Shown: positions 12,605-44,730 of the stretch, in pieces
Layout: the number at the start of each line of letters is the position of its first letter
Numbering within the stretch: the first letter of the stretch is position 1
Source of the DNA: Saturnia japonica
Taxonomy: Eukaryota; Arthropoda; Insecta; Lepidoptera; Saturniidae
Length of the DNA: 64,000 bases
NCBI GenBank assembly: GCA_033032175.1
Contig: CM065307.1
Span: forward strand, 3,782,001-3,846,000
Direction: 5' to 3'
The notes under the pieces: model-generated
What the model was told of the DNA's origin: nothing
The model's input: the letters and a program-made list of their open reading frames with translations, nothing else
Database searches by the model: none
Program-made: the position numbers and the translations under genes

Positions 12605-12721
12605 CTGTTGTAAGTGTAGTAACTGTCCGCTCTGAAGAAGTACACGTGGTTCTTGAACTGCAACTTGAATACGAAATCCTTGTCGATACCCTCGCCGGGC
12701 TCCGGCGGACCCACAGAATAC
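12605..12721 (-). CDS. FARP/Cdep: FARP exon 24 (PH2, middle)
   Basis: It encodes YSVGPPEPGEGIDKDFVFKL then QFKNHVYFFRADSYYTYN, the beta5-beta7 part of the second PH domain. It is close to the vertebrate FARP pattern (LPLLGYS...KDYVFKLxFKSHVYxFRAES). Acceptor AATTTGCAG and donor AG|GTATCG. Enters with one base and leaves with two. Confidence 0.96.
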
Positions 12722-13698: not shown

Positions 13699-13841
13699 CC
13701 TAATAGAGGTAATGAAGCGAGCGGCGTCTCATCCTGCCAACTCTTGTAGAAGAACAGCGTGAACATAGCGAACACAACCCACAGCTTCTGCCAGCCCGGA
13801 GACTTTTTAAACTTGCGCAACAGGTAACCGGATAGCTGAGT
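13699..13841 (-). CDS. FARP/Cdep: FARP exon 23 (PH2, start)
   Basis: It encodes TQLSGYLLRKFKKSPGWQKL then WVVFAMFTLFFYKSWQDETP and ASLPLL, the first strands of the second PH domain. The match to the FARP signature QLSGYLLRKFKNS-x-GWQKLWVVF is near-complete and is the single best family identifier. The exon is in phase 0 at its start and leaves two bases, GG, completed by the G of exon 24. Confidence 0.98.
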
Positions 13842-14621
13842 CTGTTTTAATGAAATATTTTGATTGAAAAAAAAGATAAATATAATAAAGGTCAAACTAT
13901 AAAATTGCAACTAAGAGAATTTTATTTATTTTTAATTTTTATTTTTATGAAAGCTTTACAGACTAATATATATCAGAAAAAAAAGAGATGAAATTCTACT
14001 AATCCTACTTCCTACTAATATAATATGTGTGAATGTGTGTATGTTTGGATGTTTGTTACTCAATCACGCAAGAACGGCTGAACAGATTTGAATTAAATTT
14101 AGTATACATATAGTCTACATAACCTGGAATAACACATACAGTACTTTTATCCTGGTGAAATCATAACTTTAACCACTGTTATCCTAAAAATATAATACTC
14201 ATCTATGATTTTTTCTTTGCTTTGTCGGGTGCCGGAATCATATGCAAGCATATGCAATAATATAGCGGGGTGGTAGGGATCGCTTCCACTATACACATAG
14301 TGACAAACCCATCTATGATTTTCTTTTGATTTGTCGTGTTACAAGATCAATCTGTGTATATCCACAAAAACGCAGACCAAGTCGCGGCTACCAGCTAGTA
14401 TATAATAAAAAGATAAAAGGAGCGAATTTGGTTTAAATATTAGCCGATGGTATCTGTCACCACTATTGCCTATTGGTGTGTGTAAATGTCTATAGTCCAG
14501 TATTGAGTTTTGGGCTAATTCAGAGTTGGAATATTCTGGAATACTGGCAGAACTATAATTATTTACAGACAATTATTACATATAGTCAGCTATATTAGAG
14601 TTATTGGAGCTCGATACGGAC

Positions 14622-14728
14622 CGTGATGGCGCGATGCAGCATGTCAGTGTGCAGAGAGGCGGTACGGTGCCAGCACACGTGCCAAAGCGCACCACCGCAC
14701 CCACCACCACCACCACTCGGTAACGTAT
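14622..14728 (-). CDS. FARP/Cdep: FARP exon 22 (PH1-PH2 linker)
   Basis: After acceptor TTGTTTAG it encodes (D)TLPSGGGGGGCGGALWHVCW then HRTASLHTDMLHRAIT. The HVCWHR motif is diagnostic for the FARP linker between the PH domains. A six-glycine run (GGT/GGG codons, a CCA repeat on the plus strand) precedes it and is probably length-variable. The donor ACG|GTCCGT is slightly weak but keeps phase 0 into PH2. Confidence 0.93.
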
Positions 14729-15321
14729 CTAAACAATAACAACATTGTATATCATTCACTGAAAATATCTGCCGGGGTATTTACAGAACTATGACGTCAT
14801 CGCGAATCACGTTATAGTAGTACAAGTTCGTGCTCGACCGTCCTATGTTATAGACGTCGGTGGGGATGAGGTAGCACGCCGCTATACTATACTACACTAC
14901 ACACTAAAGTAAATAGTATGTTGTCTCGACAGTGTTCTTGTAATAATTACTTACAGCCGCTCGGTAGATAAACACGACTTTGGCTTTTTTTTAAATAAAA
15001 ATATAATTTTTTACTTAAGGTTTAATCAACCAAAAACAATTTTAAACTGTAATTAGTAGGTAAAAGTAGACATTGAAAAGACCTCCAAATAAGTCAGCGA
15101 AAGTATATGCCTATCTTCTGAGGAATTCCCACGATAAGCATTTTTTTCTTTAAAATAACCGGGAGCATGATACGCGCGTCTGCTCGATTTATGGCATTCT
15201 GTAGTAGACGTGAGTGAATCCGCAGGAACAGCTAGTCAGAAAATAAGTGACGATGGCGGCCCTGGGCTCTTGCTCAAACTAAAAAAATATAAAAAATCTA
15301 ATATCATTTTTAAAATCTTAC

Positions 15322-15465
15322 CGATTTCTTGGTCGTACGGCGTCAGTTCAGTATCCACTTCGGTATACTTGTTTCGTGCGTTTTCAATGGCACTTTCTAG
15401 AGTATTATACCAACCCTCGAATTCAACTTCATTACTCGCATTAAGCATTACATCCACATCTTCAC
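15322..15465 (-). CDS. FARP/Cdep: FARP exon 21 (PH1, C-terminal part)
   Basis: It encodes (G)EDVDVMLNASNEVEFEGWYN then TLESAIENARNKYTEVDTEL and TPYDQEI: the last strand and C-terminal helix of PH1 with its invariant Trp, then the start of the linker. Acceptor ATCTTTCACAG, donor ATCG|GTAAGA. It leaves one base, which with AT of exon 22 makes Asp. Confidence 0.95.
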
Positions 15466-15746
15466 CTGTGAAAGATATTATTACATGAAGAAACACAATT
15501 TAATGAAAAACAAACATTATACGCAAACTTCTAAACAGAGAAAATCACCTCTTCAGTTGGTTGTAGAAACCCTATGTTCCTAACGAATTTTTATTCCAAT
15601 ATTACAATAAACTAATAGATTACACCACAATAAAGTTGAACCTTTAATATTAGAAAATGATTGTATCGAGGTGACAGTGGCAGAATTTTTTATTGTTGAA
15701 TACGTTGACATTAAAATAAGAAGCAGGACGGTCGAAATAAAATTAC

Positions 15747-15870
15747 CTGTAAGGGTGAACGCATGTGGTAGTTCCGCCGGCTTGATGCGTAGTCCGTGCA
15801 GAGCGTGCGCCGAGTGCGCTCGGAACACAGAGTTCCCGGTCTTCGACGTTATTATTAACACGTCATTGAA
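15747..15870 (-). CDS. FARP/Cdep: FARP exon 20 (PH1, middle)
   Basis: It encodes FNDVLIITSKTGNSVFRAHS then AHALHGLRIKPAELPHAFTLT, which parallels FLFNDVLLYTS...LPLYGM in vertebrate FARP PH1. Acceptor TTTTGTTGTAG, donor ACAG|GTAATT. Phase 0 in, one base out. Confidence 0.95.
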
Positions 15871-16438
15871 CTACAACAAAACAGTAACTACCTCGCTATT
15901 ATAATCGTACAATCCATCAATTTAATGTTTACAGATCGGCAACTTGAAAGAGAAAGAGCATACAGTACACGCTTGTGTTAGGACGAGTTACATACACGAG
16001 ATTGTTTTTGTACTGTACCGTTATGTAACTTGTATCGCAAAGGAATCAACAAACTAAACTATTAAAAAGGAAACAACAAAACCGACTGCAACAAAATCAC
16101 TAAAAAATATTTTTTTTATTTCTGCTTTTTATTTGATTTCCATACCTCGTACTTAAATATTATATAGTCTATGCCACTCACAGAATTAAGACGAATCTAA
16201 CGACACCTTGTATGCTAAAATCCATCAAGCCGTTTAGGCTACAGAGCGTGCCAAAGAAATAGACGTATAACATACGCTCGAAAAACATAACCCTCCTTCT
16301 TCGTAGTCGGGTAATAATACTAACACTAGTGTATTCCGTTTTTAATCTCGTCTTATTCAACTTATTGCCGATCAACACTACTGAACTTATGGTACAGTAT
16401 CTTTTGATACTATATTTGATAACGACAATTCGACTCAC

Positions 16439-16536
16439 CAAAAACAACATCTTCTGTTGTAGTCCCCTAGTGGAATGCTTGTAGACGCAACCTAGTCTTA
16501 TGAATTCTCTGTCGGCGACAAGTAGTTTATCGTAAC
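16439..16536 (-). CDS. FARP/Cdep: FARP exon 19 (start of PH1)
   Basis: It encodes (G)YDKLLVADREFIRLGCVYKH then STRGLQQKMLFL. REFIRLG and GLQQ-[KR]-M-[LF]-FL are characteristic of FARP PH1. Donor TTTTTG|GTGAGT. The frame stays open into the intron for another 260 bases, ending at 16178. Confidence 0.95.
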
Positions 16537-17814
16537 CTGTGTAAGTACACAAAATTACATCATTTAAATATATGTAAAATAAACTCATTTGAATAAAATA
16601 CATAATGTGACATTTAAACGTAACTATAATCCGACCGCTGTAAGCGCGACCCTCCAGATGGTTTGCGGGACAGCATATGTGGATGGATATACACGGTATT
16701 GAGATATTACTCTACATCGTAAGATCAATTATTTTATGCATGTTATTGCAATTGTGACATATAAATAAAATAATATGAATACAATACTTTGATGTCTTCA
16801 GTAAAATGGTAAACAAAATTTACTATATTGAACAAAAATTGTATATGTAGGTCTTTACTTCAAAAAGTTCATTGAATTTAATAGTACTAGCGGTCGACCA
16901 GCGACTTTTTAATCATAAACATAATTTAATCACATATCATGATTTTGTGTTTGACATTTGCAGTATGAACTTAAACAATGAATATTATAATCACTTGGTG
17001 TCACTTTTCATTGAGTGACGTCAATATTTTGGGGGTCTAAGTTCAATGGCACTTGTCGGGTTAGGATTCGCAGTATTAATTAATTTAATTTTTTAATATA
17101 TTAGTAACAGTTATTATATATACATTTTAGCTTTCTACACTCTTTCTCCATATAAACATTAACCATGCCAAATCTCAGTTTCCGTGGACGCAATACGCTT
17201 AAAAAGGGGTACAAAGTTTTTGCTTCACGTATTAATTTAAAGATATATTGATTGACTTTATAATTTTCTTGGAACGCGTCAAAGCATTACTTTTGTTTGA
17301 ATGGATAGTTTTTCTTTAATGCAACGTCAGTAATTGCATGTTGGTAAAATGATCTCATTTCTAATAGAAACAAAAATAAATCAGCGAAATCTCCCGCGTC
17401 ATACGTCTATTGCTGCCGACGGAGTATGGATGATCAATAATATAGAAATATCGATGTTGAGGTTGAAATCATCGATGTCTTGACATCGATATTAGGTTCT
17501 TTAAAAGATCGATGCACGATGTTAGGAAGGAAAACATGGAACATAAATGGTTCCTAGTTTGTGTGTTGTAAACCAGAGTTCGAGGATACGATGTGGCATT
17601 CCAAATATCGATGTTAATTATTTTTTTAGCGATGTTAACATCGATAATAATGTTGATGTTTCTCTAACATCGCTCACCCCTAACGGACGGCAATAGACTA
17701 AGTCATTGGTCGGTCTTTTTCCCCTTTTGCGTGTCGCAGAGCATAAGAACAGTCACACTTATGACGGTCAGCCTATAGGTAGAGAGTAATAGCGCCGCGC
17801 CAGTGTGTCAGTAC
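16537..17814 (-). other. FARP intron 18
   Basis: AT-rich. Positions 17440-17690 are dense in ATCGAT/AACATCG words in both orientations and end in ACATCGCTCACCCCTAACGG, which looks like a decayed inverted-repeat element. Confidence 0.45.
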
Positions 17815-17952
17815 CTGCGATATCTCGTTGCAGCTGGCAGAGCGCGGCGTGGTTCTGTACATGCTGCAGATGGAGCTCAGCCTCGTGCGCCGCGCACTCC
17901 GCTACCTCCGCCGGACTCGCCCCCGTGGTACCAGTCACGCCCCTCTGTAGCT
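17815..17952 (-). CDS. FARP/Cdep: FARP exon 18 (DH, last helix)
   Basis: It encodes (E)LQRGVTGTTGASPAEVAECA then AHEAELHLQHVQNHAALCQL and QRDIA. It ends in the LQRD-[IL]-[AV]-G junction that links the DH domain to PH1 in FARPs. I chose the acceptor at TATATACAG|AGCTAC rather than the AG six bases inside, because only it restores phase with exon 17. Confidence 0.92.
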
Positions 17953-17999
17953 CTGTATATAAATAGGCCTGATTCATGGAAAGTAACCAAGTTCGGTGC

Positions 18000-18070
18000 A
18001 GCTGTAAAAGCAGTAGCGGCTTCAGGGCCTCTAAGCCTAACAGTGTAGTCAGATCTTAAAAAAAAAACAA
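18000..18070 (+). mobile_element. 3' end of a poly(A)-tailed SINE-like family
   Basis: It reads AGCTGTAAAAGCAGTAGCGG ... CTAAGCCTAACAGTGTAGTC, then AGATCTT and an A-run. It is related to the nested insert at 134-277 (read on the minus strand) and to about 2590-2680. Confidence 0.5.
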
Positions 18071-18270
18071 ATACTTGACCGCTGTTAGAACCTAATTAAT
18101 CCAGCGAATTATGAAAACCAATAAAATATTGAAAACACTAGTACTAGCATATTTTGCAATAGGTAGCAGATGTCGTTGGTGAATAGATCCAGAAAGGGCT
18201 GAACGTTTGGACACTAACACATTGTGCAAAGCCTAATAATTCAGTGATTATTATCGATGTGGTAGTGTAC

Positions 18271-18451
18271 CTTGTGCAAGGGCGCGGTAGTGCAGCAGAC
18301 GGTGCAGCGGCCGCAGCAGTAGACACGTGAGCGGGAGCGGCGCGCACGACTCGAAGGCGGCGGCGGCGTGCGCTGCGGCCGCGTCGTGTCGGCGCGCGCT
18401 CTCCGCGAGCCCCACCAGCGCGCCGCACTCGCGCACGTACCGCGAGTACGC
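18271..18451 (-). CDS. FARP/Cdep: FARP exon 17 (DH, CR2-CR3 region)
   Basis: It encodes AYSRYVRECGALVGLAESAR, a stretch of Asp and many Ala, then LTCLLLRPLHRLLHYRALAQ. The LLLRPLHRL-x-HY motif is the FARP form of DH conserved region 3 and marks this as the GEF domain. The exon is extremely GC-rich and alanine-rich in AT-rich surroundings. The upstream helix is poorly conserved against vertebrate FARPs. Phase 0 in, one base out (CAAG|GTACAC). Confidence 0.93.
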
Positions 18452-19233
18452 CTGCCGACACGCACGGAACACTCACAAATACAATCAATATCCTGCAGAG
18501 CGGGGGTACTCAGATTTATAATTTCGGCGATATACCATAGAAAGTGTAGGCAAGGGCAAGCATTACCGGCCCTAGGGTAGAGTGATAGGTCACCAGGCGC
18601 CAGGTGTCAAGGACGCCAAAATGCAAATGACAGTTTCGAGCACAAACCTGTTCATTGATTATTATTTTTATTATTATTTATTAAACAAAATAATTAAATA
18701 AATTTAACGTGAAAGGGTTGACTAATACAAAAGGAGCCTAAAGACAATCTCAGACACCGGATAAGTAAAGGACTATGTCCAGCACTGTAGGCAAGTACTA
18801 TAGATGTTATTAGTTATATCTATGATCGCCACCGCAAGACTATTGTGATACAGTATTTTATACCCTTCCTCTCAGCTCAAAGCTCTCGTAATCGATTTGT
18901 CGACCGCGATGAGCTGTTTGAGCACCCTTGTTGTAAAAAAGTAATTTAATTAAATTGTAAATCCTCACATATAAAAGGCAAGGTCTCTCTCTTTGTCCCT
19001 TAGTTTGCTTACAACACGAACACACTGAACCGATTTACATCTTATATTTTATAAATATAGGCGTATACTCTGGTCAGGCTTGTTTTATTACATTAGGTAA
19101 AGGGACAAAGCTAAATTCAGTAGAAAACACATTATATTTGTCTTTATTCTATCGAGGTAATTTATCTCTCTCGCTTTACAACACAGTTTTTTCTTTTACT
19201 TTCTCTCTCTCTCTATCTGGCCATGTGCATATT

Positions 19234-19764
19234 TAGAGATGCCACGAATAGTTATTTTGCCACGGTCTTGGCCGAAGCGCCGAATATTCGACGCGGGAGA
19301 CAGCTTACAACCTGTCTCATTGCACTACATGCGGTGGCGATACGGGAGGCATTTGTTATGTCTGATTGTGTTCGCCCAAAGTAAAACATGGTCCCACGCC
19401 CTAGAACGAGCAGAGACCTTTACAAGTAGTGGTCAGCATAAACCTGAGAAAATTCGCAAAGGTTTTTTAACGATCATCGTGCGGTAGCAGTATCTATAGT
19501 GAGGTAATTTTCAGAATCGGTTGTAATTTATGAAGAAAATCGCAATCCTTTGCTACCAAGAAATGATGAAAAATTGTTTCCATATATCACAACTTACCCC
19601 TGATAAATTTTAAGTATTAATTGTAATGTAACAAAACATTATTGATTTTGGAGCAATATGTGTGATTTTTTTCTTGTTTTGGTATTTCGGCATTCGGTCG
19701 AATACCGTATATAAAAAAAAGTGGCCGAATACCGAATAGTAACTGAATATTCGTGGCATCTCTA
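19234..19764. mobile_element. Inverted-repeat DNA element in FARP intron 16 (hAT-like?)
   Basis: The ends are inverted copies of TAGAGATGCCACGAATA. They are flanked by near-matching 9-bp stretches, GTGCATATT (19225-19233) and GTGCATAAT (19765-19773), suggesting a target duplication of about 8 bp of hAT type. The inside carries subterminal CGAATA/GGCCGAATAC words in both orientations. There is no convincing transposase frame, so it is a non-autonomous copy. Confidence 0.55.
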
Positions 19765-19903
19765 GTGCATAATATATTTTGTCCTTTTTTCGCTAGAAAC
19801 GTTGCCTACGAAACGTTTCAGTAAAGTTCGACCTTGGCATTGTATTCTTATCAGACCCAGAAAAGTTTCACTTCCAAACTGTAATATATTTCAATTTGCT
19901 CAC

Positions 19904-19971
19904 CTCACTAGTACTCGATAAATGATCGTACAAAAATTCCGATATCCTTCTGTACTCAGGTTCATCTATCT
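19904..19971 (-). CDS. FARP/Cdep: FARP exon 16 (DH)
   Basis: It encodes (E)IDEPEYRRISEFLYDHLSST then SE. This aligns with the YQRIGD-x-[ML]L-[KR]-N part of vertebrate FARP DH domains. Acceptor TTTTTACAG, donor GAG|GTGAGC. The alternative AG two bases downstream would give an immediate stop. Confidence 0.9.
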
Positions 19972-20192
19972 CTGTAAAAACACAAAACAATTACTTATAA
20001 AATAAAAAATTGTTGATACCGATTAAAGCATAAACAGTATTTTTGTCATTATTTTGTTCTGTTGTTATTAATATTATTGTATTTTACCTAATATTCTATT
20101 TTTGATATTTTTTTATTGTAAAATTTAAATAGTTATAATCGCTCATACAAAAGTTGTAATCATGGTACAGTGTGTTTTCTGGAGTGTGTTAC

Positions 20193-20352
20193 CTTCGTGT
20201 CTTGAGGGCGAAGCGGCCGCCAGTATCCTCTCGAGCCTGGCGAGGAAAGCGCCCGCGGGCAGCGCGAGCGGTTCGAGCGCAAGACAGGCGCGCGCGACGC
20301 CCGCCACCTCCGCCCCGCCCGCCGCCAGCTCCGACACCCGGCGAGACCATGT
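20193..20352 (-). CDS. FARP/Cdep: FARP exon 15 (DH)
   Basis: It encodes TWSRRVSELAAGGAEVAGVA then RACLALEPLALPAGAFLARL and ERILAAASPSRHE. Spacing and hydrophobic pattern follow vertebrate FARP DH (TWF...LF.N..P...FH..FL.E.EQRLALWEG), but identity is low and alanine is very frequent. Phase 0 in, one base out. The exon is GC-rich (NotI-like GCGGCCGC near its 3' end). Confidence 0.88.
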
Positions 20353-20544
20353 CTGCACACAAACCCGCTACTGACTCTACTTCTTTTTTTTTTTTTTAAT
20401 AATAGCTCTGCACATTGACAGTACTGTCCCTGATGGAAATCCCAGCACAATCCAAAGACAACGGCGACCACCGACTCCATCCGGCGGCTAAATCCATCGG
20501 CGGTCGCTGCTGTCATACCGGCCTGCATAAATATCTATGTTAAG

Positions 20545-20755
20545 AGTAATGATGGCTCAGTCGGTAGCGTGCAGGGACTCCACGTCGATAGACGTGAGTT
20601 CGACACGCTGTATTAGGCCTGAGCTTTTGGTGAAAAAAAAACATCGTAATTAAACCATAGCATGATTCAACACAGTCTTCCACTAGACTTAGCGTGTTAC
20701 CATCTTGGGCCACATCGTCATTTAAGATCAGGTGAGATTGTCGACACAACGCTAA
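20545..20755 (+). mobile_element. tRNA-derived SINE
   Basis: The head TGGCTCAGTCGGTAG resembles a pol III A box and GAGTTCGACAC a B box. A body follows (GAGCTTTTGGTGAAA, CATCGTAATTAAACCATAGC) and the end reads TTAAGATCAGGTGAGATTG. It has an internal deletion relative to the copy at 50330-50650. Confidence 0.7.
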
Positions 20756-20889
20756 ACCTATAAAGATTTTAAAAATCCAATTAGGATTTATTTCTCATAC
20801 CTCCGACTTCTTATTCGTTGCTCATAAACAATTCTGTTTTTAGTAGTCTAGCAAATGCACTGTACGTTACGTTCAGCACAATCAAAATA

Positions 20890-21560
20890 TCAAAATAAAA
20901 TATATTTTATTCAATTTAGGCCCTAAGAAGACACTTATGAATGTCGAAATACTACCACCGGTTCGGAAAACCTCCCAGACATCGAGAAGAACCGACAAGA
21001 AACTCGATCGGGTTTATATTATTTTTGTTTTTTTAAACTGGTTATACAGTATTTAATTATATACAGTTATTATCATTTTCAGTAGATGTACAGAGAGGGA
21101 ATCACATCCAGACATCACCATCATTAACGTAATCAGCCACCCTATAAAACCCTTCGACAATAAAACCGGCTTAACACATGATTTTTGAACTTATTATCCG
21201 GCAAATTGGTAATGTGCTTAGAAAGTTTATTATAGAACCTAACACAATTACCTAAAAACTTTTATTTGTTTTACTGAGTTTAAAAGACGGAATGACTATT
21301 TTATATTTATTTCTAGTATTGAAATTGTGTGTGTTAGTAACAAGTTCAAAATTGCTTTCATTTTTCCGAACATACATTATATTTTCCAAAATGTATTGGG
21401 AAGGCAAAGTTAAGATATTAAATTCTTGAAATTTATTCCTCAATGATTCGCGTGGTCCCATATCATAAATTGCCCGAACTGCCCGTTTTTCTAATACAAA
21501 TATGGTTTCTACCTCAGCTGCTGAACCCCACAGTAAAATACCATAGGACATTAAACTGTG
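20890..21560 (-). mobile_element. Non-LTR retrotransposon 3' end (truncated LINE)
   Basis: The minus-strand frame 21252-21551 reads MSYGILLWGSAAEVETIFVL then EKRAVRAIYD, the conserved C-terminal part of Jockey/CR1-like reverse transcriptase proteins (YG..LWG......I..LQKRA.R.I). It continues into a 3' UTR containing the common lepidopteran block with CCACCGGTTCGGAA and GAAGAACCG (about 20935-21005). It is 5'-truncated and lies within FARP intron 14. A second, shorter copy of the UTR is at 48290-48500. Confidence 0.75.
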
Positions 21561-21952
21561 GAAGTAAGCGAAGTAGACCAGCCTAGCAGTAGCAATACAG
21601 TAGAATCACAACGGCGACCACCGAAAGATGCCGGCTTGCATAAATATCTCTTCACGTTACGCTTGAAAGATCCAATGTCGTAGGAAGGAGGGAAAACATT
21701 GTACATTTATTGAAAAAAAAAAAAACGGTGTGACCTTAACGAGACCACACGAAAGAAATTAAAACTTTATTATGGCTATGTTTATAAATACGAAATACAA
21801 TTAGTCGACTCGAGGCGACATTACCCGACCGAGCGTGACAGCTCAGCCTCATTCAATACTTATAAAATAAAGTGCCTAAAAAAGTTTTCACTTCAAAAAA
21901 CATACGCGAACACTGTGCTAATAAATGAGAAAGTTGATATCTGGGCACTCAC

Positions 21953-22109
21953 AACGGTGATAAGTTCCAAGTCACGTTTATAAGTACGTTCGGTCATCAG
22001 GAGTTCCTTGGCGACGAAATACGTGATGTCCGTGTTACGCCGCCGCGGGACATCCCCGGTGGCGGTGGCGGCGCACTCGCGTAGCGTGCCCAACAAGTTC
22101 GAAGATACA
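21953..22109 (-). CDS. FARP/Cdep: FARP exon 14 (DH start, CR1)
   Basis: It encodes (S)VSSNLLGTLRECAATATGDV, then PRRRNTDITYFVAKELLMTE and RTYKRDLELITV. YF-[VI]-AKE-L-TERTY-x-[KR]-DLE-[VL]-IT is the FARP form of DH conserved region 1. The Glu of TER is the residue that in DH domains contacts the Rho GTPase switch region, so nothing here suggests loss of exchange activity. Acceptor TGTTTCAG, donor GTT|GTGAGT. Confidence 0.97.
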
Positions 22110-22989
22110 CTGAAACAATTCAACATTTCAGTTCACGTATAGACAGCTCAACTCATTTGGGCACGCCGCCTTCTTCTTACCCCATATCCTGTTTAAGTAG
22201 GGTCGGCAAAACATGTTTACATGACAATATCATATTCATATTCACAACTTTTGTGCGCGCGGCCATACACGTGCGTAAAACGTATCCAAATACAGTATAA
22301 CTATACTACGCGCGCGAGTTGAATACAGAGTTACGGAATTCGATAGTGCTGTGACTCAATTAGAATTACTGCTGTCGATAGTGAGAATGTCGGTAAACTT
22401 CAACGTTATTTGAAATTTAACATTTACATATTGGTTAACATAAAGAAAAAACAAGGTAACAATTTATCAAAAAAAAATTTCAAATCAATTATTTCACACA
22501 GATAAACCAAACTGAAAAAAATAATATCTATAATTTTATCTCCGTCAGATTCATTTTTCGCCATTCCTCGTGGTTGGCGATGAATAAAAAACATGTTGTT
22601 TGTAACAGCAGTTGATGGAGTCTTCGTTAAAAACAAAAACTAACACGGGACTGTAACTTAAGCATTAACGCGATCGGTAAACGTACGATAGTTGTTAAAG
22701 ACAGCACTCACATCGCTAAAGTAAGGGCGTGTGAGACGTGGTGTGCGGACGTCGGGGCGAGATACTTCCACTCTTTACCTCAGGCCCCAACTGCACTCAA
22801 CTCGCGCGCTTTTTATGCTGTTTATTTTGATTATATGTGTAAATACTTATATAATTTTAGAAATTTAAACTTATTTGTTAACAGTTAAAAATTAACGGAT
22901 TATTCATGGAAACACTACGAACTAGGCGGAATTGAAGAAATCATGTTAGCAACACTGTATGTGTGCATGTATTGATGGCAGTGGATGGC

Positions 22990-23567: not shown

Positions 23568-23661
23568 CTATTATTGTTTCGCCTAGAGAGTGTATCACCA
23601 GCGTCACTCTCGCCTCCGCTCAATACATCCATACTCGTCGTTGACTCTGATACTATATTCA
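23568..23661 (-). CDS. FARP/Cdep: FARP exon 13 (linker)
   Basis: It encodes (V)NIVSESTTSMDVLSGGESDA then GDTLSRRNNN, an acidic/Ser-rich linker just before the DH domain. The phases agree on both sides: G|TG with exon 12 and AG|T with exon 14. Confidence 0.88.
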
Positions 23662-25065: not shown

Positions 25066-25290
25066 CGGTAATGTTCCCATTGACAACGTCAGAGGCAGCG
25101 AGTTTGTTGTCGACGTGTCCGTTGGTGAGCGATCGCTTCGCGTGCGCGTACGGCGTCGACGAGCACAATGGCGGCGCTCGTCGCTCGTAAGCGGACCGCT
25201 CGTGCGTCGACGTCGGAGACATGCACAGGCTGGCCGACGATACCGTCGCCTCCTCCTCGACCGTCGCATCCTCATCGGCCGATGTATCGT
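25066..25290 (-). CDS. FARP/Cdep: FARP exon 12 (linker; first exon after the giant-tail region)
   Basis: It encodes (D)DTSADEDATVEEEATVSSAS then LCMSPTSTHERSAYERRAPP and onward to ASDVVNGNIT. It is an acidic, Ser/Thr-rich linker between FA and DH domains, with no fold evident. It enters needing one base from upstream. Exon 10 (phase 0) cannot supply it, but the internal donor at 42905 can (G|AC = Asp). This is the key link that makes the 11-kb tail optional. Donor ACCG|GTAAAT. Confidence 0.9.
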
Positions 25291-31721: not shown

Positions 31722-34700
31722 TTAATCGTTTTCATCGTCAGAGCAAAGAGGCGGCGGCAGTGTGGACACATCGAATTTTTGCTCAGGACTATCGCTAGAC
31801 GCTTGCGAGTCAACGTAATGACTAGAGTAAAAGCGCTCAACATTATTTAAACTGAACCGCTGATCAAGATCTCTGGTATAATGCTCCCCGTTTCTATCGC
31901 CGTTCTCATCCAAATCATTTTCATATTGCGGGTAACACTCCTGCGTTTGAAACATTTCAACTTCCTCGTAACGTTCTGGATACGGGCTACCTCTATATTC
32001 TTCATATTGATCCTTATCGTGCGTTAGTTCCGTATCCGAATAAGCCGTAGATTCTCCACGCTCAAAAACATAGCTGGCAGATTTATTCATTTTTGGAGCT
32101 CTTTTAATAGTGTCTATAGGATAAGCGTAATCATCTGAATCATCCCTGTCACTTTGTTCCTCATAATAAACTCTTTGCGGATGTTGCCCTGAAGGTTCGC
32201 CTACAAGTTTGTCTTCGGATAGCAGGAAACTGGTAGAAGATTTAGCTCTTTTTAAAGAAGACTGTCGACTACTTTTATTCGAATACGATATGCGAGGTGG
32301 GCTATCTTCAGATACATAAGAGGGCTCCTGCGTATCGAGGTAGGGATGACGTAAACGACCTAATCTATCGAAACGAGGGAAACCCATTTCGTCTTCGTCA
32401 GCTGATGAACCAAACCCTTGAAACTGAACAGGTGTTATGCTGATAGGAAATTGTTTTGCCTCATAATTCTCACTTTTGTATTTCACATAATCTTCCAGTC
32501 CTTCGTCTTCCGAGAAGCTGGCCTCCTCTTGAATGTCGTAGTGTCTACAATCTCCTTTTGACATTTCTGACGAACCAGACTCTACTTCTGGTTGATAGCT
32601 ATCAGAACATTCTGAACTCTCCATGCGACGTAAGGACTCATCCACTGCCAAATATTGAACTCCATGAACCTTTTCACTTTCCGAAGAATACTGACTTTTC
32701 GTCGAGTCTTCCTCTAAGACGTCTTGAATTTTTTCTTGTCTTCTTCGTGTACTCGTTACCTGTTTCTTTCGTCTAAATGTCTTCATACGTTCACGTGGAT
32801 CTCTTATGACATCCAGAGAGCTATCAGTGTCATTACCACTTGGGGGACTTTTTAGTGATATGTTTCTTACTAGTAGTGACTTTTTAACAGATGCTTTCAG
32901 AGGTTGTATTGGTGGTGATTCCGAACTCAAGCTACTCGAATAATAAGGTGAACAACGCGACAGTGGAGTCTTCCCAGATCTCTCTCCTTGTTTCTTCTCT
33001 TGTAATTCTCTATGAACAGAAGGTATATCCGGAACAGAAATAACCGGTAGGTCTGAAGAAGCTAAATAGTGCTCATGAAAAGACCAGCTTTTTGGTTTAC
33101 TGCGGTATTGGTGTGATGTTTTATATTCTTTGATCTGATTCTTGGATAAAGTTTTATCATCGTAACTTGCGTGTTTTGCTAATGGTTTGTAATCTGATCT
33201 TATGAATGGGCCACCAGTATCTTCACGTAAAATACTGGAGAACTCTTGACTCTGATATCGTTCACTATGTTTCTCTTCTTGACTATAAAGTTGTGAAGGC
33301 ATATCAATATCAAGTTCCGGTTGTGGTCCCACAAAGTAAGGTTTGAAACCACTATCTTCGCTTTGACAACGTGTAGTCGGCTTTATAACTTTCTGACCTT
33401 GTTCTTCGTAACTCAAACTCTTCGGTGGTACTTTTTGATATCTGTCATGGGTGAAGTTCTGTGGATGAAATCCTCTAAGCCTTTGATCGAATCTCAAAAC
33501 TCCATTAGAATGCCTTTGCAGACTACTTAAAGAACTGGAACTAGATTTATCCGATTTATCACTAAAACTTATTGAAGAGGACTTATCAGTTTTCCCTGTA
33601 TGGCTTTGAGACAATATCAAAGCAAATTCTTTCATCTCGTGAAAATCATTATCTTTTATAGGCGATGCTGTTTTTTCTGTATTATGTTTTTCGAGTTTTT
33701 CCTCCGTTATAGAAGTCGCTTCTACAACTACAGTATCTTCAGATTTCGTATTGTTGTCACATAATGAATCGATACGTGCAGTTCCTACCAACGTGTGACT
33801 AGTACTCGTCGACCATTCAGATATAGATTGTGCTAATGTTAAAGTACTATCACTTTTAGTACCTGAACTACTATCAACACCTTTTCGGGATACTGTTGTG
33901 TCTGAGCTATACAACTTATCATATTTTATAATATCTGAACTTTTATCTAAGCTACTACTTTTAGAACTCATTTCAGTTTGGGAACTAATTTTAATTTTTT
34001 GCTCGATTTTCTTACTAGCATGTGACGAAGAATATAGTTTACCCGAAGTATTTTCCGATTTCTCACTTTTCGGAATTGACACAGCTGATATACTTTCTGA
34101 TGCTGATAGATTTGCATACTGACGAACTGTATTAGTCCCTGTAGACCACTCAGAAATGCTTAGACAAATGGAAGTATCCTCGGAATGGGAACTGTGAGTA
34201 CATTTCTTTTGAGGCAACCCAATTTTAACGGTACCGTCTAAATCTGTACCGAATGAACTAGTTTCCTCTTCCGAATGACTACTGTGACTACATCTTTTGC
34301 AGGTACCCGCGCTTCCGGTACTCAACTTAGTTGAAGCACGAACTGTCTCTTCCGCATTTGTGTGCGAAAGAAGATCGTCTATAGACGTGTCGGAATTGTT
34401 AGAATCTATAGAATATTTTTGCGAAAACCCTTTATCAAAGTCAGGCGATAAAGATTTACTGTCTCCGCCAAATACATCGTCAACATACATAACATCATCT
34501 TCAAAAATTGGACTATGGTTAGTAGGCGACTTTTGAGGTTGGCTTATTATAACTTTATTTTCTAAATTACTTTTAATACTAAATGATTTATGGTCTGAAC
34601 GTGAACAGCAAGACCCCATATCACCCATAAGACACGTTGCTTTACTGATAGTTCCACTAAGACAAGACTTGTCATAGTTCGGCACAGTGTTTTTATTAAG

Positions 34701-37700
34701 ACATTTAAATTCGCCGTGTTTTTCTAAAGGCTCCACCATGTATCCAGACTGTTCGTATGGTATAGTTTTAAAGTTTTTATTTTCAGCGTCATCGATTTTA
34801 TCTGTCGACCTTTCTGATTTCATCTCTTGCACATCTTTTTCTAAATCATCGTCGTTGTTCAAAGTATCACTATCATCGTCTGATCCATCTATCTGCTCTT
34901 TAGAACTATCAGACTGAAGAGTTACCTTCATGGCCTGTTCTGGCTCATTACTCATATAGTAAATATGTACTTTCTCAATGATGGGAGTTTCCAGTAGGCT
35001 AGATGAAACAGGGCGTTGCTCAAATTCAATCGAGTTCCTTTTAACATTACCTTTATCACAGTTTTTCAGGGATACCTGTATTGGCAATTCCGGTAGTGGC
35101 CAATCTTCAGATTCCTGACTTTCGCTTGCAGATGATTGTTTTGATGGAGCTTGAAGTTTGATTCTTGTCACACTATTGGGACTTCCATCAGATTTTTTAG
35201 GTTCCAACGCATCATCGGTTAGCTTTCCTTGATCAGCGTACATTTCGCAAATTTTGGTTTGATCTATAGGTATGTCAGGCATTTCTGCTGATGTCCTTCT
35301 ATCAGTATCCGAAATATATGCAACATTAGCGTTACTGGGTGGATCCGAACTCAAACTAGCTTGATGATCGCTAGAGTTCATTGATTCTTCATTCAAACTT
35401 TCAGATCGTGAACAGGCTTTAGTAGAATCTTCATCAGCACTTGTTTTTTCAGATGTGGTGCTTCGCTCAGATATACGAGATAAGGTGCGACCGAAATTTT
35501 GCCCGTATCCTATTACAACATCAGTTGTTGATGAAGTAGATGGATATAAGAAATTAACAGGAAAATCGTTTAGGTCATCAGTGAAATCGGCTTCGGTAGA
35601 ATCCTTAGATGTGTTTGAAGATAAGGGTGGATTTTTTGAGAAAGTTTGAAAATCATCAAGTAACCTTTGATTATTGTATTCAAAAACATCTTTACTGTGA
35701 GATAAACTTTCGTAACCCTCATGATCTTGTGGAATCCATGCTTCTTCAATACTCGTGCTGTTTTCACTACCAGAAGCACCAAAAAATGGCCTCCAAGTGG
35801 GTTTTAGCTCTTCTCCTCTACGGTAAGCCTCGCCCAAAGAGCCGGAAGTTGATTCAGTTGTTTCGAATGACCCTCTCGATTCTACACTAAGTGATCCTCT
35901 AGAATCCATGCTAGATTTAGAAGAACTCTTCTGCTCATCCAGCAGTCTTCCTTTTCTACGTGAAGATGAGTCATCGACACTAAGAGAACCTTTCGAAGGT
36001 GTAGTGGTTGTAGTATCCATGCTTGATTTAGATGAACTTTTTTGATCTGTATCTTTCAGCGCTCTCTTTTTCATAAGTTCTCTCTCGAAAGAGGATGTAA
36101 TAACATTCCCATCATCATCAAAATCTATAGTAGTGTTTTGGTCTTCTTGTGATATAGTTATAGCTATTTTAGTTTTCTTTACAGTCCTTTGTAGCTCTTT
36201 TGCTATATCCGAAGCTTTCGATGCAGCCGATTGACTCGACTCTGATTCTTCCATAACGCATTTTCCCATTTTCTCTAAACCACTTTTTCTTGCATTTGGT
36301 TTTTTGAGCTTTTCGACAGTTTTGTCAATACTTTCAGAACTAGATTCGGAATCCGTAGGTGCCTTTTGCGAATCAACTTGACCTTGTTTTTCTAGTGTTG
36401 GCGTAGGAGATTTTCTTGTTCCGTATTTACTTGGACTTCTTGGACTTTCAATTCGAGTCATTTCAGGTATTGGTGACGGCGATTTAGAATTAGACTTTGA
36501 ATGTTCGCTAGATAAAGTATGTTGAGATAATAAATGTTCTTCGCCATATTCCATGGCTTGTTTCAATTCTTCTAAGCATTCCCTATCCTTTTTGTTAAGT
36601 TTTTCAATATCTTGTGATATACCCAGCGGTCTAGCAATAGAACAACTGACACTAGACTCATCGTCGATAGAACTACCTTTGATATTGCTTGACGGGCTGA
36701 CATCCTTTTCTATACTGGTCCAAGATGTCGATTCTGAACTACGAGATCGTTCTGCGCTCAATTTTAATAAATCGCTACGTCTCGATTTAGCACCCAACAG
36801 CGTTTTTGAATCAGGCTTCGGTTCAGTGGGTGATTTGTCACTTCCGGAACTACCGGTATGTTCCCCTCCATCCGATTTGTTAGATTTCGAGGTGCTCGAA
36901 TCAATAAACGCAATAGTTTCAATTGTAGGACTGTTCTCCTGCGGTGGAGTAACAATTATTTTATTTTTATTTTTCCATTTCAAACTCAAATCTACAGTTT
37001 TAGATGGATCCCTAGTTATTTTTATGTCACGTTCTGTCTCTGTGTCGGATATTTGAGACATAGATTCATGTTTCAAAAACTCGACCAAACTAGCAGAAGA
37101 TTCATCAAATGTTCCCTGAGGGTCTAATATTTTCTTTCCTTTGGTGGTTTTACTACTCATGTCGGAAAGTAGTAGTTCAGTATCAGCTGTATAATCACAA
37201 GTTATGCATGATCCAGTATCATCACTTTCCCCACGATTTAGTTTAGTAGTTATCTTCAAAGTTTGATCTTGATCTGACGAGCTATCGGCATCAATATATG
37301 GCAGCGAAAGTCCCAATAAATTACTTTCATCAGATACTTTCAATTCACTAACATCGGTCAATGACTCTTCTTCACTCGTCAACCGCGTAACAGATTCCGA
37401 CTTCTCCGTTTCTCTTGTACGTATGTGCAACATTTCATGAATATCTTGACAGCTCTTACTTTCCTGTAACTCGTTTTGTCTTTGTTTGTTATAAAGGTCA
37501 ATCTTTCTACGTTCTAAAATAATCGTTTGTGTGTCATTTTCTATCACAGTATGTTGAGAACTTGTCATCCACTCCATCGAAGAATCATCTTCAGTTTTTT
37601 CTTTGTAACTATTTGAAGGTGATGTTTCCTTCATTCCTAGAACAATTGAACTAACTTCTTGTATATCTTCAGGTTCCTCTTTTAAGCTTGGATGCACGTC

Positions 37701-40700
37701 AACTTTGACGGTTTCTTGTTTAAAATGTTTCTCAGTAGATTCCGTCGGTAACACCGACGAAGGTGTGACATAATTTCGATCAAGGCTTTTGGATTTTGCT
37801 TTCGAATCAAGATGAACATCTACTTTACGTTCCAAACTTTTAGATTTTATACTTTGATTCATTTTTTGATATACAACTTTGCCTTCTATTTGTTGTTTGA
37901 TTTCTTGTTTTTTAGATAATGTTTTAGGCGATTTTTGCAAGGCAGCAAGGTCATCAAATTTATCTTCCAACGATTGACTGGACTTATCATCCATACTTTT
38001 ATTCATTTTAACATTTGTTTTTGGGGATTTTTGATCCTCGAAACTTCGACTAATTTTTCCACTTAATTTATTGTCAAGCTTTTTAGGAGACTTTGCAATA
38101 AAGACATGATCTTCTGCTTTACTTGTAATTTTTGTTTCAATAATAATTTTATCTCCCTCAGTCTTCACCATTATTTTATCCTCCGGTGGAGGGAACGGTG
38201 GCATAGTATCTTTAACGGGACTAATAAGCGTTTTCGTTTGTTTTAAGGCAGCTTCAAATAGCATTTGCTGTTTTTCTTTACGTTTAGCGATTTCTGTGTC
38301 ACTGTCTTCTTGAGATTTTGTTCTCTCTTTACTTCCTACGCGTTTAATTTCCATCTTCTCTAACGATTTTGATTTTTCTCGTGCCATTCTCTTTGTAGAT
38401 TGTTCTAGTTCTTGACTCTTAGCTCTTGCTATATCCAATGGGGGTACAGTAAGAAAATCCGGTCTGTCTTTTAATGAAGATGGCAAAGATTTCTGTGTTT
38501 GCAATGCTTTTACCTTAGTGGCATTGGTATCGAGTGATCCGCCTTTATTTAACTTGCTATTTACTTTCTGTTTATCATCTGGTTTGGTCTTTAAAGTCAA
38601 CTTTTTCTTTTCTTTTCGTTTAATTCTCTCTATATCAGGAACTATTTGATCCTCGCTCAAATCTGACAGTTTCCTAATGCTACCTCTAGGTGAGTTTAGA
38701 GATGACGTCGGTGACCTCGACGGAGATTTAGATATGGGTGAACGAGATATTGGGGATTTACTCAAAGGAGATCGAGTTGGGGATTTAGTTTGAGATTTCA
38801 GTTTCGTCAAATCGTACCTACGCTTAAACGAACGCGGACGTCTTTGTTCGATTAGATTTTCTAGTAACTGTAACTCTTCGTTATCAATAACAACTTTTTT
38901 TATTTCTTGTAAATGTTCTGGAGTAACTTCTTCTTCAACTTCGTCTATTTTTTCAATCGTGTCCTTTTTTGATATTGGTGCAATAACATTTTTATCCTCC
39001 AGTAAAGGTTTTTCTTCCAATATTTCCCCTTCTTCATTAATGTCTTCAACAGTATCGTCCTTCGATGAAAATGCATTCATAGGAGGTAGCCTATGAAGTT
39101 GAATGACAGGTGTGTCTAAACTTTTAGCTCTTCGACTTGCTGTTGGAGAATCTTGGGTTGCTTTTTGACGTTGCAGCGAGAAAACTGATCCTTCTGATAA
39201 ATTCAATCTAGCATGCGCAAACAGTATTGGTGTCCCACCAGGTTTACGTAACATGGGAGAAATTAATTCATCTCGTAAACTCTTCTTAACATCTAGTTTA
39301 GTAAAATCTTTCATCTCTTCTTTTGGCAATTCTCTTTTTTCTTCAGATTGTGATCGTTCATCGGTTACCTTCTGTATTTCCATGTCAGCTAAATGTTCAT
39401 CATCAGATTTAAGAAACTCTGTACTCTCCAGTATCGGTGAAGGAATGTTTTCATTATACTCCCATGTAGAACTATCTTTACTTGTTTGTTTTATTTCAGG
39501 CATTTTCGTTGCCACATCATCTTCGGAACTTGGAATGGAAATCGACCGTTCAGAAATTCTTCTAAGTTCTGTAGCATTACCGCTAATACTTTCCAGTATT
39601 TGTGGATTATATTTTGCTTCCAGTTCAAGTAATTTACGACACTGCGGTGGAGAACCTTCGATTTCTGTAGAACTCATTGTTTGTCCTCTATGCCAAGCCC
39701 CTGAGGTTATTTTATCGTATTCTAGCTGCAGAATTGGTTCCAGATCCTTCCGCGATTGAGGAGGAGAAAATTCTAACTTAGGAGCGGCTTCGGTTGTACC
39801 AAAAACATCATCAGAGTCTACGCTTTCATCATCTGACGAGAAGGAGGTTATTCTAATTTTATTATTATTTTTCGTTTTGATTTTACTACCAGCACCTTTT
39901 TTGCCAGTACCTCTATTCTTTGGAGCTCTCTTTGGTGGTAGTTTTTCTGACTTAGATTTGATATCAGCTCGCAATTTTTCAGCAGCTGACATAGGCTTTG
40001 GATCTTTACATACTGGCGTCTGTTGCATGTTACGACCGTTTATAGTAAACTTAATATCATGAGGGAATTGAGGTTCTTGGATGATACTATCTGTTTTAGA
40101 GCTAGTAGCCGAATCGCTTTCAATTTGACTAAGTTTAGAATTTAACGTCTCAAGAAGTAGTGGGTCTAAGTTTTTGGTAATATCTCGCTTAGGGCTTGGC
40201 AAATGTTGTAATTTTCCACTTTTATTCATTTCTAAGGTGACTGGATCTACCTTAGATAGATCTATATTTTGAGTGAACAAAAAATCTCGACTTTCTACTT
40301 CTAAGAACTTCGAACTGTGATCGATTTGAATACTACTTCTCGGCGACTTAGGTGATTTAGGGGATTTGGGCGATTTAGGTGATTTAGGAGACTTTGGAGA
40401 TTTTGGAGATTTTGGTGATTTAGGTGATCTTGGAGACTTAGGATGGTCGTGGTATTTACACCGAGGATGTGCACTGACTACGTGACGACCATTTTGCGGT
40501 GGCAGCATTACGATGTCAGGAGGCTGTCTCTTATCATCTAAAGGAGAAGGGGCAGTTCCATTCATAACATGTCTCTTATGCAATATATAAGGAATGTCAT
40601 ATCCATCATCTACCGTTCTCTTTGTATCTTTAAACCCTGCTTGAAATTCATCAAATTCTTTAAAATAATTTTTGGGTAAATCAAAGGGAGATCTTGCATG

Positions 40701-42904
40701 GTCCGTATGTCTAGATGGCAATTCGAAATGAGATCTTTTCGTTGCAATGGGAGGTGCACTCGGTATCTGTCGAAATATATAGTCTTCATCACTGGACTCG
40801 GCAGGTGTTAAATCTATAGATTTTTGATGCATTAAAACATGCCTGCGTGAGTTAACACTATTGAATCGAGGTCTATTAGCTAGACTATTTGGATCACTTT
40901 TAGTTCTTTCAACTGTGGGGTGCGTGTATGATACAGCGGTATCTGCGAGGCGACTACTCGAGCTCGTTTCCAAAATTAGTTTTGGATTATATTCATCAAA
41001 ATGAGTCTTCGCCATCAATTCTTCTTTCAAACTATCTTTTCTTACCATATGCGTGTGAACTTTTCCACGTTTATCAAATTCCGACAGTAGAATCGAAACG
41101 GTTCCAGATTGTATCGCAGCGGCTTTTGCTTTATTTTTAGCATATTCAATACTATCCATTGCGGGTAAAACACGTACGTTAACATCGGATTCATTTGATG
41201 ACTCCTTAACTAAATGTGACGTTGCATTCTCCTTACTGATTGATCGAGTCAAAGATTCTATCTTCTCCTTGTCAAAGCTAAAAACTGTTTCAGAGGACCG
41301 GCGACGCTGGTAGTTATGTACTTTCGCCACTCTACTGCTTTCAATTTCCGTGTCGAGTCCCGTTATCTTTTCTGGCCAAATATGAGTTGTTTGTGGATGT
41401 ATATCTTCCTCTTCAGTTGAGAATTCGTCTGGCTTTTTTGGTGGACTCTCATCCGAATAGAGACCGAATTGTTCAAGCTCGACGTTTTGCAAGCTTGCAG
41501 AATGTACAGGACCTGGATCCTTGTGTTTATTGTTGCTCGGAAATGTTGAATAAGGAGTTGGTATGTGGTAGAAGCTGGGAGAATTAGCTAAATTTGCAAT
41601 CAAATCCTCATGTGATTTATCGAACAACGTTCTTTCTCTATACTCCGGTTTCTCCATTCCGATGAACGTAGCCTGTGTGTCATAGAAATCTTTAGTAGAA
41701 TCTGGACTTGACGACGGCGACACTGGCTCGAAAGGGTCGATATAGACTTGTTGTATGCTTGTGATGCTTCGCCGACGGATATCATCAGGCTCGTACAAAT
41801 TTCTTCTGCAGTCATAGTAGTCCGATTTAGAGTCCTGACTAGAAGTACGCGAGCCGGATCGATCAGAACTTTTACTCTTTAGCGTTTCGCGAGACTTCTT
41901 GCTGTCGGTATGGTAAACGCTGTCCTTTGACTTCTTACTCGATTCAGCGCTACTCTTCGAAAGTTTCGAATCGTAAATGTCGCTTCTGGACTCTTGGCTG
42001 GAGGTGCGTGAACCAAGTACGCGTTTAATTTCACGGTAAAAGGCACCATCAGACCGTACAGAGAGCTTCTCACGAGGAAGGATACGCGGGTCATCCACCA
42101 GAAAGGGGTCAAGACGCAGTTCCGGGTCGCTTCCGTAAAGGGCGGGCGCTGCATCCGACTCACGACCGTCGACCTCAGAGAGAGAGTGGTCGTCGTCAGA
42201 TAGCAGCTCGTTACCGGAATCGAGAGAGCAGGAACGGGTACGCGGATGAGCACGACGACCCTCCGATTCTTCATCAGAGCGCTCAATGAGCTCGTAGCTG
42301 TCGTGAGACACGTCATCCTGGGAACCGCTGCGCATGAACGCCGAAAGCTCCAACCGTGGCTCCCCGATAGCACCCGGGAAGCTCGCGGAGTATGCGCGTG
42401 GTAACAGCGACCGCTGTGAATCTGCTGAGGCAGTCCGGGACCAAGGTGCAGCGAACGAACGTACTTCCCCATATCGCGTCACAGAGTCGATATCGCGCGA
42501 ACGATAAGCGTCAAGATCAGCGAGGGCACTCCGCGCGTCACGCCGTCGCTTCGCACGACCTGCTTCGTCAAAACTATAGTCTCGCAGATTGCGACAGCTG
42601 GCACTACGACGCCAGAGAAAACGCACAGGCGGCGGGCGCACGGGCCGCCCAGACGCCACCGTCTCGAGGAGGTGATCTTGCGCGGGTTCACCGCCGGATC
42701 GGCTGGAACGCGTCGACGGACAAGCGGAGTAAATGTTGGTCTGGCTGAGTTCATACTCGAGTCGTTCGGAAGACTTCCTGAAGCTGGAGGAATATTTAGG
42801 CAGCACAAAGTCGGGGTAAAGACTAAGGGCCGGGGAGACGGCGACAGGTCGCGTGACAGTGCGCGCGGTGCGCGTGTGCGTGCCCGTGGGCGTAGGACTC
42901 TGAC
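31722..42904 (-). CDS. FARP/Cdep: FARP long isoform: giant alternative C-terminal tail
   Basis: A single unbroken frame of 11,183 nt continues in register from the FARP exon at 42905-43052 and ends ...STLPPPLCSDDEND TAA (31722-31724). It adds about 3727 residues. The tail is dominated by Ser, Lys, Asp, Glu and Thr, with no signal peptide, membrane segment or catalytic motif. Visible features: two SRTSSQ[ED]S-[RK]-SD units near 41830-42015; a KSP/RSP run at about 40338-40443; two SPPQ[SC]RK-x-LE units near 39640-39780; SPT/SPI/SPL clusters near 38690-38800; repeated KSKSLE/KSKSLD near 37780-38370; SISEWSTGT and SISEWSTST near 34140 and 33810; two C[ST]HSSHSE units near 34190-34300. It has normal codon use and no decay, so it must be translated. 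A role as a phosphorylated cytoskeletal or cortical scaffold is inference only. Confidence 0.88.
40338..40443 (-). repeat. KSP/RSP triplet repeat inside the giant tail
   Basis: Nine consecutive Lys-Ser-Pro triplets are flanked on each side by an Arg-Ser-Pro and, at the N-terminal side, a further KSP. Synonymous codons vary between units (TCA/TCC/TCG, AAA/AAG, CCA/CCT/CCC), so the array is kept at the protein level rather than being a fresh DNA slippage. KSP runs are best known from neurofilament tails, where they are sites for proline-directed kinases. Confidence 0.95.
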
Positions 42905-42910
42905 CTGTGC
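42899..42910 (-). promoter_or_regulatory. Internal 5' splice site that decides between the two isoforms
   Basis: The minus-strand sequence CGCACAG|GTCAGAG. Cutting after 42905 leaves one base (G), which with AC of exon 12 gives Asp and keeps the frame into the DH domain. Not cutting leaves the frame open for 11 kb. The phase-1 match is exact and no other donor was found that joins exon 10 or 11 to exon 12. Confidence 0.82.
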
Positions 42911-43052
42911 GAGGCTGGTGGAGCTGCGCCGCCGGTTGATGGTGCTGGTGGTGCGAGTGTGGACGAGGGGCACGAGGCGGCGGAGTGGGTGCGCGTCCGC
43001 GCCCACTGCCGCGAGGCATACTCCCCTGGCTCCATGTACTCTCCGGAGAAAC
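42905..43052 (-). CDS. FARP/Cdep: FARP exon 11 (shared by both isoforms)
   Basis: Acceptor CGCTTTTCTCAG. It encodes VSPESTWSQGSMPRGSGRGR then APTPPPRAPRPHSHHQHHQP and AAQLHQPRT. A Pro/His/Arg-rich disordered linker, very GC-rich. Phase 0 in; one base out when the internal donor is used. A second frame is also open here, but only this one joins correctly to both exon 10 and exon 12. Confidence 0.9.
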
Positions 43053-43130
43053 CTGAGAAAAGCGAAACCGGGTTTTAACTATGAACTTGTTCCGTGTTGA
43101 ACTAACGTTATAATGATCCGAATTACTTAC

Positions 43131-43217
43131 CAATGGTGTCGTCGTCCGATGAGGCAGAGGCGAATCCTCCGTAGCATGATGATTGACCTCGGCATGTGTC
43201 ACTAGTTCGGGGCCCAC
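43131..43217 (-). CDS. FARP/Cdep: FARP exon 10 (linker)
   Basis: 87 nt, phase 0 on both sides: VGPELVTHAEVNHHATEDSP then LPHRTTTPL. Acceptor AATTGTTCAG, donor TTG|GTAAGT. A symmetrical small exon that could be skipped without breaking the frame. No domain. Confidence 0.88.
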
Positions 43218-44557: not shown

Positions 44558-44730
44558 CTTGTCCCTCGTGGTGGCATAGGCGGTAGCTAGTAAAGGCGGG
44601 CGAGCGGCGACCGGCGCCGGGTGCTCCTGGGCCCGCTGCGCCGCCGCCCGCGCCTCCTCCGCTGAGTACCCCTTCATCATCAGAGAAGCCTCCAGGTAGT
44701 GAGGCTGCTTGTCCCACTCCAGGGAAATCG
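44558..44730 (-). CDS. FARP/Cdep: FARP exon 9 (linker)
   Basis: It encodes (A)ISLEWDKQPHYLEASLMMKG then YSAEEARAAAQRAQEHPAPV and onward to ATAYATTRDK. Probably partly helical (Ala/Glu/Arg-rich) between the FA domain and the disordered linker. Two bases in, phase 0 out (AAG|GTTAGC). GC-rich. A second frame is open through this exon and its neighbours, but the phase from the FERM exons selects this one. Confidence 0.87.

Follow-up and report, generated by a model that had tools for sequence, protein, structure and literature searches.

In Caenorhabditis elegans, the FARP1/2 orthologue frm-3 produces from one locus two isoforms with a common FERM-FA module, FRM-3A, which has no recognisable domain in its C-terminal part, and FRM-3B, which carries a guanine nucleotide exchange factor (GEF) domain and two PH domains; according to the accessible text, the two arise by alternative splicing within the exon that ends the GEF-less form (PMC7260190). 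In the same text, FERM-FA suffices for GABA-A receptor clustering and binds UNC-40/DCC, FRM-3 recruits LIN-2/CASK, and the motifs FxW and KRKK are cited for oligomerisation and phospholipid binding; the GEF-bearing FRM-3B likewise rescued receptor clustering, and the isoforms are not shown there to differ (PMC7260190). The scaffold role of FRM-3 is agreed in the accessible parts of PMC6920096 and PMC9632837, the latter drawing no isoform distinction there. Here, we analysed 64,000 nucleotides of the Saturnia japonica genome (GenBank assembly GCA_033032175.1, contig CM065307.1, positions 3,782,001 to 3,846,000 of the forward strand; this whole stretch is called the window, and positions below refer to it). 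It holds the insect FARP gene, named Cdep in Drosophila, and we propose, with a probability of roughly 0.8, that this gene has a composite terminal exon in which one donor chooses between a Rho-type GEF (RhoGEF) and a giant GEF-less scaffold.

The FARP gene and its giant open frame

Exons were rebuilt from splice signals and reading phase and numbered from the first FERM exon that the window contains (Table 1). Phases are consistent across the model, through ten FERM-FA and linker exons (55623 to 43131), exon 11 and exon 12. FERM_N, FERM_M, FERM_C and FA all score above their Pfam cut-offs in the spliced window protein, which has FSW (an FxW motif) at 208 and KRKK at 219; an N-terminal coding exon, sought in the window by motif scan, was not found. 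Taken as single exons of the minus strand, 18472-18254 gives a sub-threshold RhoGEF match (E 0.0055) and 13910-13698, corresponding to PH2, a PH match just under the cut-off (E 8.9e-5). The full-length lepidopteran protein P0041 is also below the RhoGEF threshold (23.2 versus 27.6 bits, residues 683-855) and shows two PH stretches, and the beetle protein P0090 carries PH as well as a RhoGEF match clearly above cut-off.

The frame of exon 11 runs on the minus strand from 43052 to a TAA at 31722, and re-translation returned the 3,776 stop-free codons counted in a first-pass annotation of the window. From stop to stop this frame covers 31722-43265 (3,847 codons) and is the sole open frame of at least 300 codons in the window. 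In first-order Markov simulations, the longest open frame ranged from 111 to 184 codons in 20 sequences of 64 kb with the dinucleotides of the window and from 105 to 193 codons in 20 sequences of 11.3 kb with those of the exon itself, and the remaining two forward frames of the giant exon contain 180 and 472 stops. The tail past the donor has about 3,700 codons, and the long form, starting with FERM exon 1 of the window, has 4,219 residues. A Pfam scan of the tail gave zero matches at E<=1. Intron 10 (43130-43053) is 78 nucleotides long, a multiple of three, and stop-free, so that its retention would also preserve the frame. Inside the giant exon, a 9-bp tandem array (40342-40443) codes for (SPK)n, and SPK runs recur in other insect tails (Lutzomyia P0007, Eupeodes P0019, Arctopsyche P0006).

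The same frame is used by the RhoGEF form of other Lepidoptera. A search with the FA-linker-DH stretch returned 144 proteins, the figures here resting on the best 120 of them; among the matches listed, 35 records (P0041-P0075) are lepidopteran where named, with some species repeated and P0067 partial. Manduca P0041 reads ...DAISLEWDKQPHYLEASLMMKGYSAEEAR...VGPELVTHAEVNHHPTEDSPLPHRTTTPLVSPESTWSQ...HTRT/DETSAEED (the slash marks the junction or point of divergence), equivalent to window exons 8, 9, 10, short 11 and 12 in the same frame. The residue past the junction could be aligned in 25 of the 35 records and is Asp in 21 of those, which together with Manduca P0041 indicates that the frame of the giant tail is the one read in the RhoGEF form. 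The donor at 42905, which the first-pass annotation took to be in phase with exon 12, indeed leaves in phase 1 and meets a phase-1 entry at 25290, and the predicted alternatives in the window are QPRT/GQSP for the giant and QPRT/DDTS for the GEF product. Tail and RhoGEF models apparently lie on one contig, judged by equal contig sizes, in Chrysodeixis (P0003/P0049; 14,354,939), Parnassius apollo (P0002/P0078; 1,855,621), Leptosia (P0004/P0088; 9,338,528) and Psylliodes (P0033/P0117; 119,832,951).

The tail and its joined models across insects

Judged on its sequence, the tail is real coding sequence. Protein and hidden Markov model (HMM) searches found homologues in Lepidoptera, Trichoptera, Diptera, Coleoptera and Hymenoptera, and more weakly in Hemiptera, so that the search beyond the source species proposed in the first-pass annotation yielded six insect orders. 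Near-invariant islands stand amid a disordered background, and conservation at the protein level across orders covers some 3,000 residues and more. A C-terminal motif, FD[VI]xx[ILV]PPP, recurs just before the stop in five orders, suggesting that the tail's own end is under selection; it was looked for in two bug models and not found. Several tail proteins (P0022, P0170, P0172, P0189) bear misleading database names (microtubule-associated protein 1B-like, titin isoform, titin-like). Linepithema humile P0167 (Cdep isoform X6, 1,818 aa) has a shortened tail, suggesting that the tail can be further spliced internally or can end elsewhere.

Searching with an ant FERM region for proteins of roughly 1,800-5,750 residues gave 55 matches, by name 23 hymenopteran, 13 FARP-type beetle, 2 hemipteran, 1 other beetle FERM protein (P0208, not of the FARP type), 2 molluscan, 1 nematode and 13 flatworm proteins. 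Models joining FERM-FA to the homologous tail, with no DH-PH, come from ants, bees, wasps, beetles and two bugs; 12 of the 13 FARP-type beetle models lack PH, and the thirteenth, Callosobruchus P0194, has both tail and PH. Most are named 'uncharacterized' or 'hypothetical', others 'Cdep isoform X1' (Euwallacea), 'FARP1 protein, partial' (Acromyrmex) or 'titin isoform'.

In Euwallacea, Pfam detects FERM-FA alone in the giant P0185, and FERM-FA, RhoGEF and PH in P0090, from the same species and apparently the same contig; no residue differs between them from 1 to 547, after which they read HRADT/GIIIHT (giant) and HRADT/DDRREN (GEF). Similarly, Augochlora P0177 and P0115 are identical for 497 residues, followed by ISSA/GRIS (giant) or ISSA/DNKP (GEF), and Fopius P0179 and P0106 for 495 residues, followed by TSST/GRIS (giant) or TSST/DGDE (GEF). 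A clean split, with Thr or Ala followed by Gly in the giant and by Asp in the GEF form, was thus seen in three of the five same-species pairs tried. In other beetles, comparison of the giant model with a RhoGEF model from a different species places the divergence at an earlier exon (LADSNLS/). If a phase-1 exon ends in G, reading through its GT donor necessarily gives GGT, hence Gly, and Gly stands at the split in 31 of 37 giant models (P0194 being outside the 37), the misses being 4 of 12 beetles and both bugs; from this split residue we infer a phase-1 donor in the other species as well. The window shares what characterises these insect Cdep giants, a homologous tail in frame after FERM-FA with Gly as the first residue past the split. 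A long open frame after the same FARP exon, which the first-pass annotation had suggested looking for, is thereby found as joined models in Hymenoptera, Coleoptera and Hemiptera, with the split at a corresponding residue in the first two. Its idea that use or neglect of one splice site decides between RhoGEF and giant gains support from the lepidopteran short junctions, the joined models and the three splits.

A putative donor switch and its alternatives

We propose that, when the donor at 42905 is used, exon 11 would be trimmed to 148 nucleotides and joined to exon 12, giving a FERM-FA-DH-PH-PH RhoGEF. When the donor is ignored and the transcript is cleaved beyond 31722, upstream of exon 12, translation would read through GGT (Gly) into the tail, giving a FERM-FA protein of more than 4,200 residues with no exchange-factor domain; this giant product would be an isoform of the FARP locus and not a RhoGEF. 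The source species presumably makes both transcripts. The GEF-less form may act as a membrane- and receptor-bound scaffold whose disordered tail offers short docking and phosphorylation motifs, and both forms, having the FERM-FA module in common, could bind the same partners and membrane sites and perhaps assemble into mixed oligomers; they might also compete, as the first-pass annotation suggested. The balance between Rac/Rho activation and scaffolding would then depend on the splice choice, as the frm-3 pair suggests.

Several observations weigh against this proposal. The giant form is known here from genome sequence and gene models, the joined giant proteins look like automatic predictions, and neither the tail search nor the FERM search returned a joined model from Lepidoptera or Diptera. 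Two of the five same-species pairs show no clean split (in Dendroctonus the two diverge in another way, and FERM is missing from the tail model of Psylliodes), and the scaffold role of the tail is suggested by analogy. No AATAAA or ATTAAA lies within 1.2 kb past the stop, the first ATTAAA being at 30456 and the first AATAAA at 28370; the 6.4 kb from the stop to exon 12 contain 13 AATAAA and 11 ATTAAA, where base composition predicts 8.2 and 9.2. Dipteran (Lutzomyia P0007, Eupeodes P0019) and lepidopteran (P0002-P0005) models of the tail lack FERM, and the four named lepidopteran ones start at internal Met residues, at about window residues 1497-1683; at one of these places the window has a residue other than Met. 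MSK, a possible translation start, is common to 10 of 13 tail proteins that are dipteran or, by similarity, presumed dipteran, and residue 12 of exon 11 in the window is a Met at which translation could start independently.

The lack of joined models, the separate tail models, the MSK and the absence of a near polyadenylation hexamer make an own promoter possible in Lepidoptera and Diptera, and the tail could accordingly be a separate gene inside the FARP locus, at least in these two orders, that annotation pipelines fused elsewhere; the giant frame is indeed open upstream through the 78-nucleotide intron 10 to 43265. We regard this as unlikely, since many species belonging to three orders have joined models, the hymenopteran and coleopteran splits fit a phase-1 donor, and the tail frame in the window is that of exons 10 and 11 in the RhoGEF form. 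Moreover, similarity between several of the 13 dipteran or presumed dipteran tails reaches upstream of MSK, and in Lepidoptera the conserved tail neither starts at nor is closely preceded by a conserved Met, the four tail models beginning far inside conserved coding sequence. After residue 12, the next Met in exon 11 of the window is residue 240, the first past a conserved RSASC block, and no Met occurs in exons 10 and 11 and the start of exon 12 in 14 of the 17 lepidopteran FARPs, out of 35, in which these could be delimited.

Less probable still is that reading through the donor reflects occasional intron retention, with a giant transcript but little protein. The donor CACAG/GTCAGA has a non-purine at +3, yet donors in this gene are often weak (2 of the 12 others have GTRAG), and noise fails to explain protein-level conservation that extends over some 3,000 residues or more from order to order, in islands typical of selected coding sequence. 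Least probable of all is a single protein holding FERM-FA, tail and DH-PH-PH with the end of the tail spliced out, as Callosobruchus analis P0194 (3,779 aa; FERM, tail and PH in one model) would suggest, given that the precomputed Pfam column lists neither PH nor RhoGEF for the other 37 joined insect models and that the C-terminal motif of the tail appears selected.

Relation to known systems

Returning to the donor switch, its principle is not new, as frm-3 already yields GEF-less and GEF-bearing isoforms from one FARP locus; the window has the FRM-3A-type arrangement, with a terminal exon that stays open and an in-frame donor inside it leading to the GEF exons, frm-3 being known here by description. 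The first-pass annotation knew of no such isoform, which holds for the insect giant form, of which we found no description in the titles and abstracts listed by literature searches and on which the accessible parts of two papers mentioning Drosophila Cdep (PMC2764050, PMC11722539) are silent, but not for the principle, for which frm-3 is a precedent (PMC7260190). The insect giant models have about 2,200-3,500 residues and the window form more than 4,200; zero nematodes were among the named tail matches, and the one nematode protein tested with the tail HMM did not match. In vertebrates, FARP1 and FARP2 are RhoGEFs of the same FERM-FA-DH-PH-PH order that Pfam shows for the insect relatives, and we know of no giant GEF-less form of either.

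Tentatively, and at somewhat less than even odds, the FARP switch may predate the split of nematodes and insects, with one regulated donor, and insects may have enlarged the scaffold arm to a multisite hub of 3,000-4,200 residues, which would rank among their largest cytoplasmic proteins, likely at synapses and the cell cortex, kept since before the bugs separated from Holometabola. That separation took place more than 350 million years ago. FARP-like FERM proteins of about 2,000-2,950 residues from a sea slug and flatworms (P0193, P0196-P0206), most with FA, have no RhoGEF or PH in the precomputed Pfam column and are unmatched by the insect tail HMM; in the same scenario they would be further branches, with tails too diverged to align. 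In the ankyrins (480-kDa ankyrin-G), a membrane adaptor acquires a giant neuronal form through a very large exon, but there the exon is an internal cassette, unlike the giant FARP exon, which is terminal and replaces the catalytic half. In titin novex-3, from an unrelated protein family, the main product is truncated by an alternative terminal exon, which holds a large open frame.

If the proposal is correct, an insect RhoGEF gene has a second, much larger product, perhaps conflated with the first in knock-down and phenotype studies of Cdep/FARP: RNA interference on FERM exons would hit both forms and on DH exons just one. The gene would be a convenient system for studying how a choice in splicing can exchange catalysis for scaffolding, and the FARP tail would explain database labels such as 'titin isoform' and 'microtubule-associated protein 1B-like'. 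The frm-3 work, in which a GEF-less FERM-FA form clusters GABA-A receptors, predicts what to look for in insects, as far as the accessible text describes it (PMC7260190).

Table 1. Features of the FARP gene in the window.
Feature	Position	Strand	Basis
FERM-FA exon 1	55623-55519	-	splice phase, Pfam
FERM-FA exon 2	52356-52134	-	splice phase, Pfam
FERM-FA exon 3	51054-50931	-	splice phase, Pfam
FERM-FA exon 4	50083-50019	-	splice phase, Pfam
FERM-FA exon 5, with FSW (FxW) and KRKK motifs	49801-49623	-	splice phase, Pfam, motif scan
FERM-FA exon 6	47597-47437	-	splice phase, Pfam
FERM-FA exon 7	46741-46667	-	splice phase, Pfam
FERM-FA exon 8	45512-45376	-	splice phase, Pfam
Linker exon 9 (AISLEWDKQPHYLEASLMMKGYSAEEAR...)	44558..44730	-	splice phase; sequence recurs in Manduca P0041, Galleria P0042 and Parnassius mnemosyne P0067
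Linker exon 10 (VGPELVTHAEVNHHATEDSPLPHRTTTPL), entered and left in phase 0	43131..43217	-	splice phase, lepidopteran models
Exon 11, short form, 148 nucleotides, predicted common to both products, phase-1 donor CACAG/GTCAGA	42905..43052	-	acceptor before 43052; lepidopteran FARP models
Predicted giant tail, the continuation of exon 11 beyond the donor, opening with GGT (Gly) and closed by TAA at 31722	31722..42904	-	translation, tail homology, split position
Exon 12, opening the GEF-only half, entered in phase 1	25066..25290	-	splice phase; Manduca P0041 junction RT/DETSAEED
Exon 13 of the RhoGEF form	23568..23661	-	splice phase
DH-PH-PH exons of the RhoGEF form, approximate boundaries	12505..22132	-	translated peptides, sub-threshold Pfam

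Within a FARP intron, 21605-21255 on the minus strand holds an open frame that we take to resemble the C-terminal part of a reverse transcriptase of the type without long terminal repeats. Near the start of the window are a 61-bp T run (134-194) and a 21-bp tandem repeat of 6.4 copies (527-661), and a repeated element is seemingly common to about 54-287 and 843-1136.

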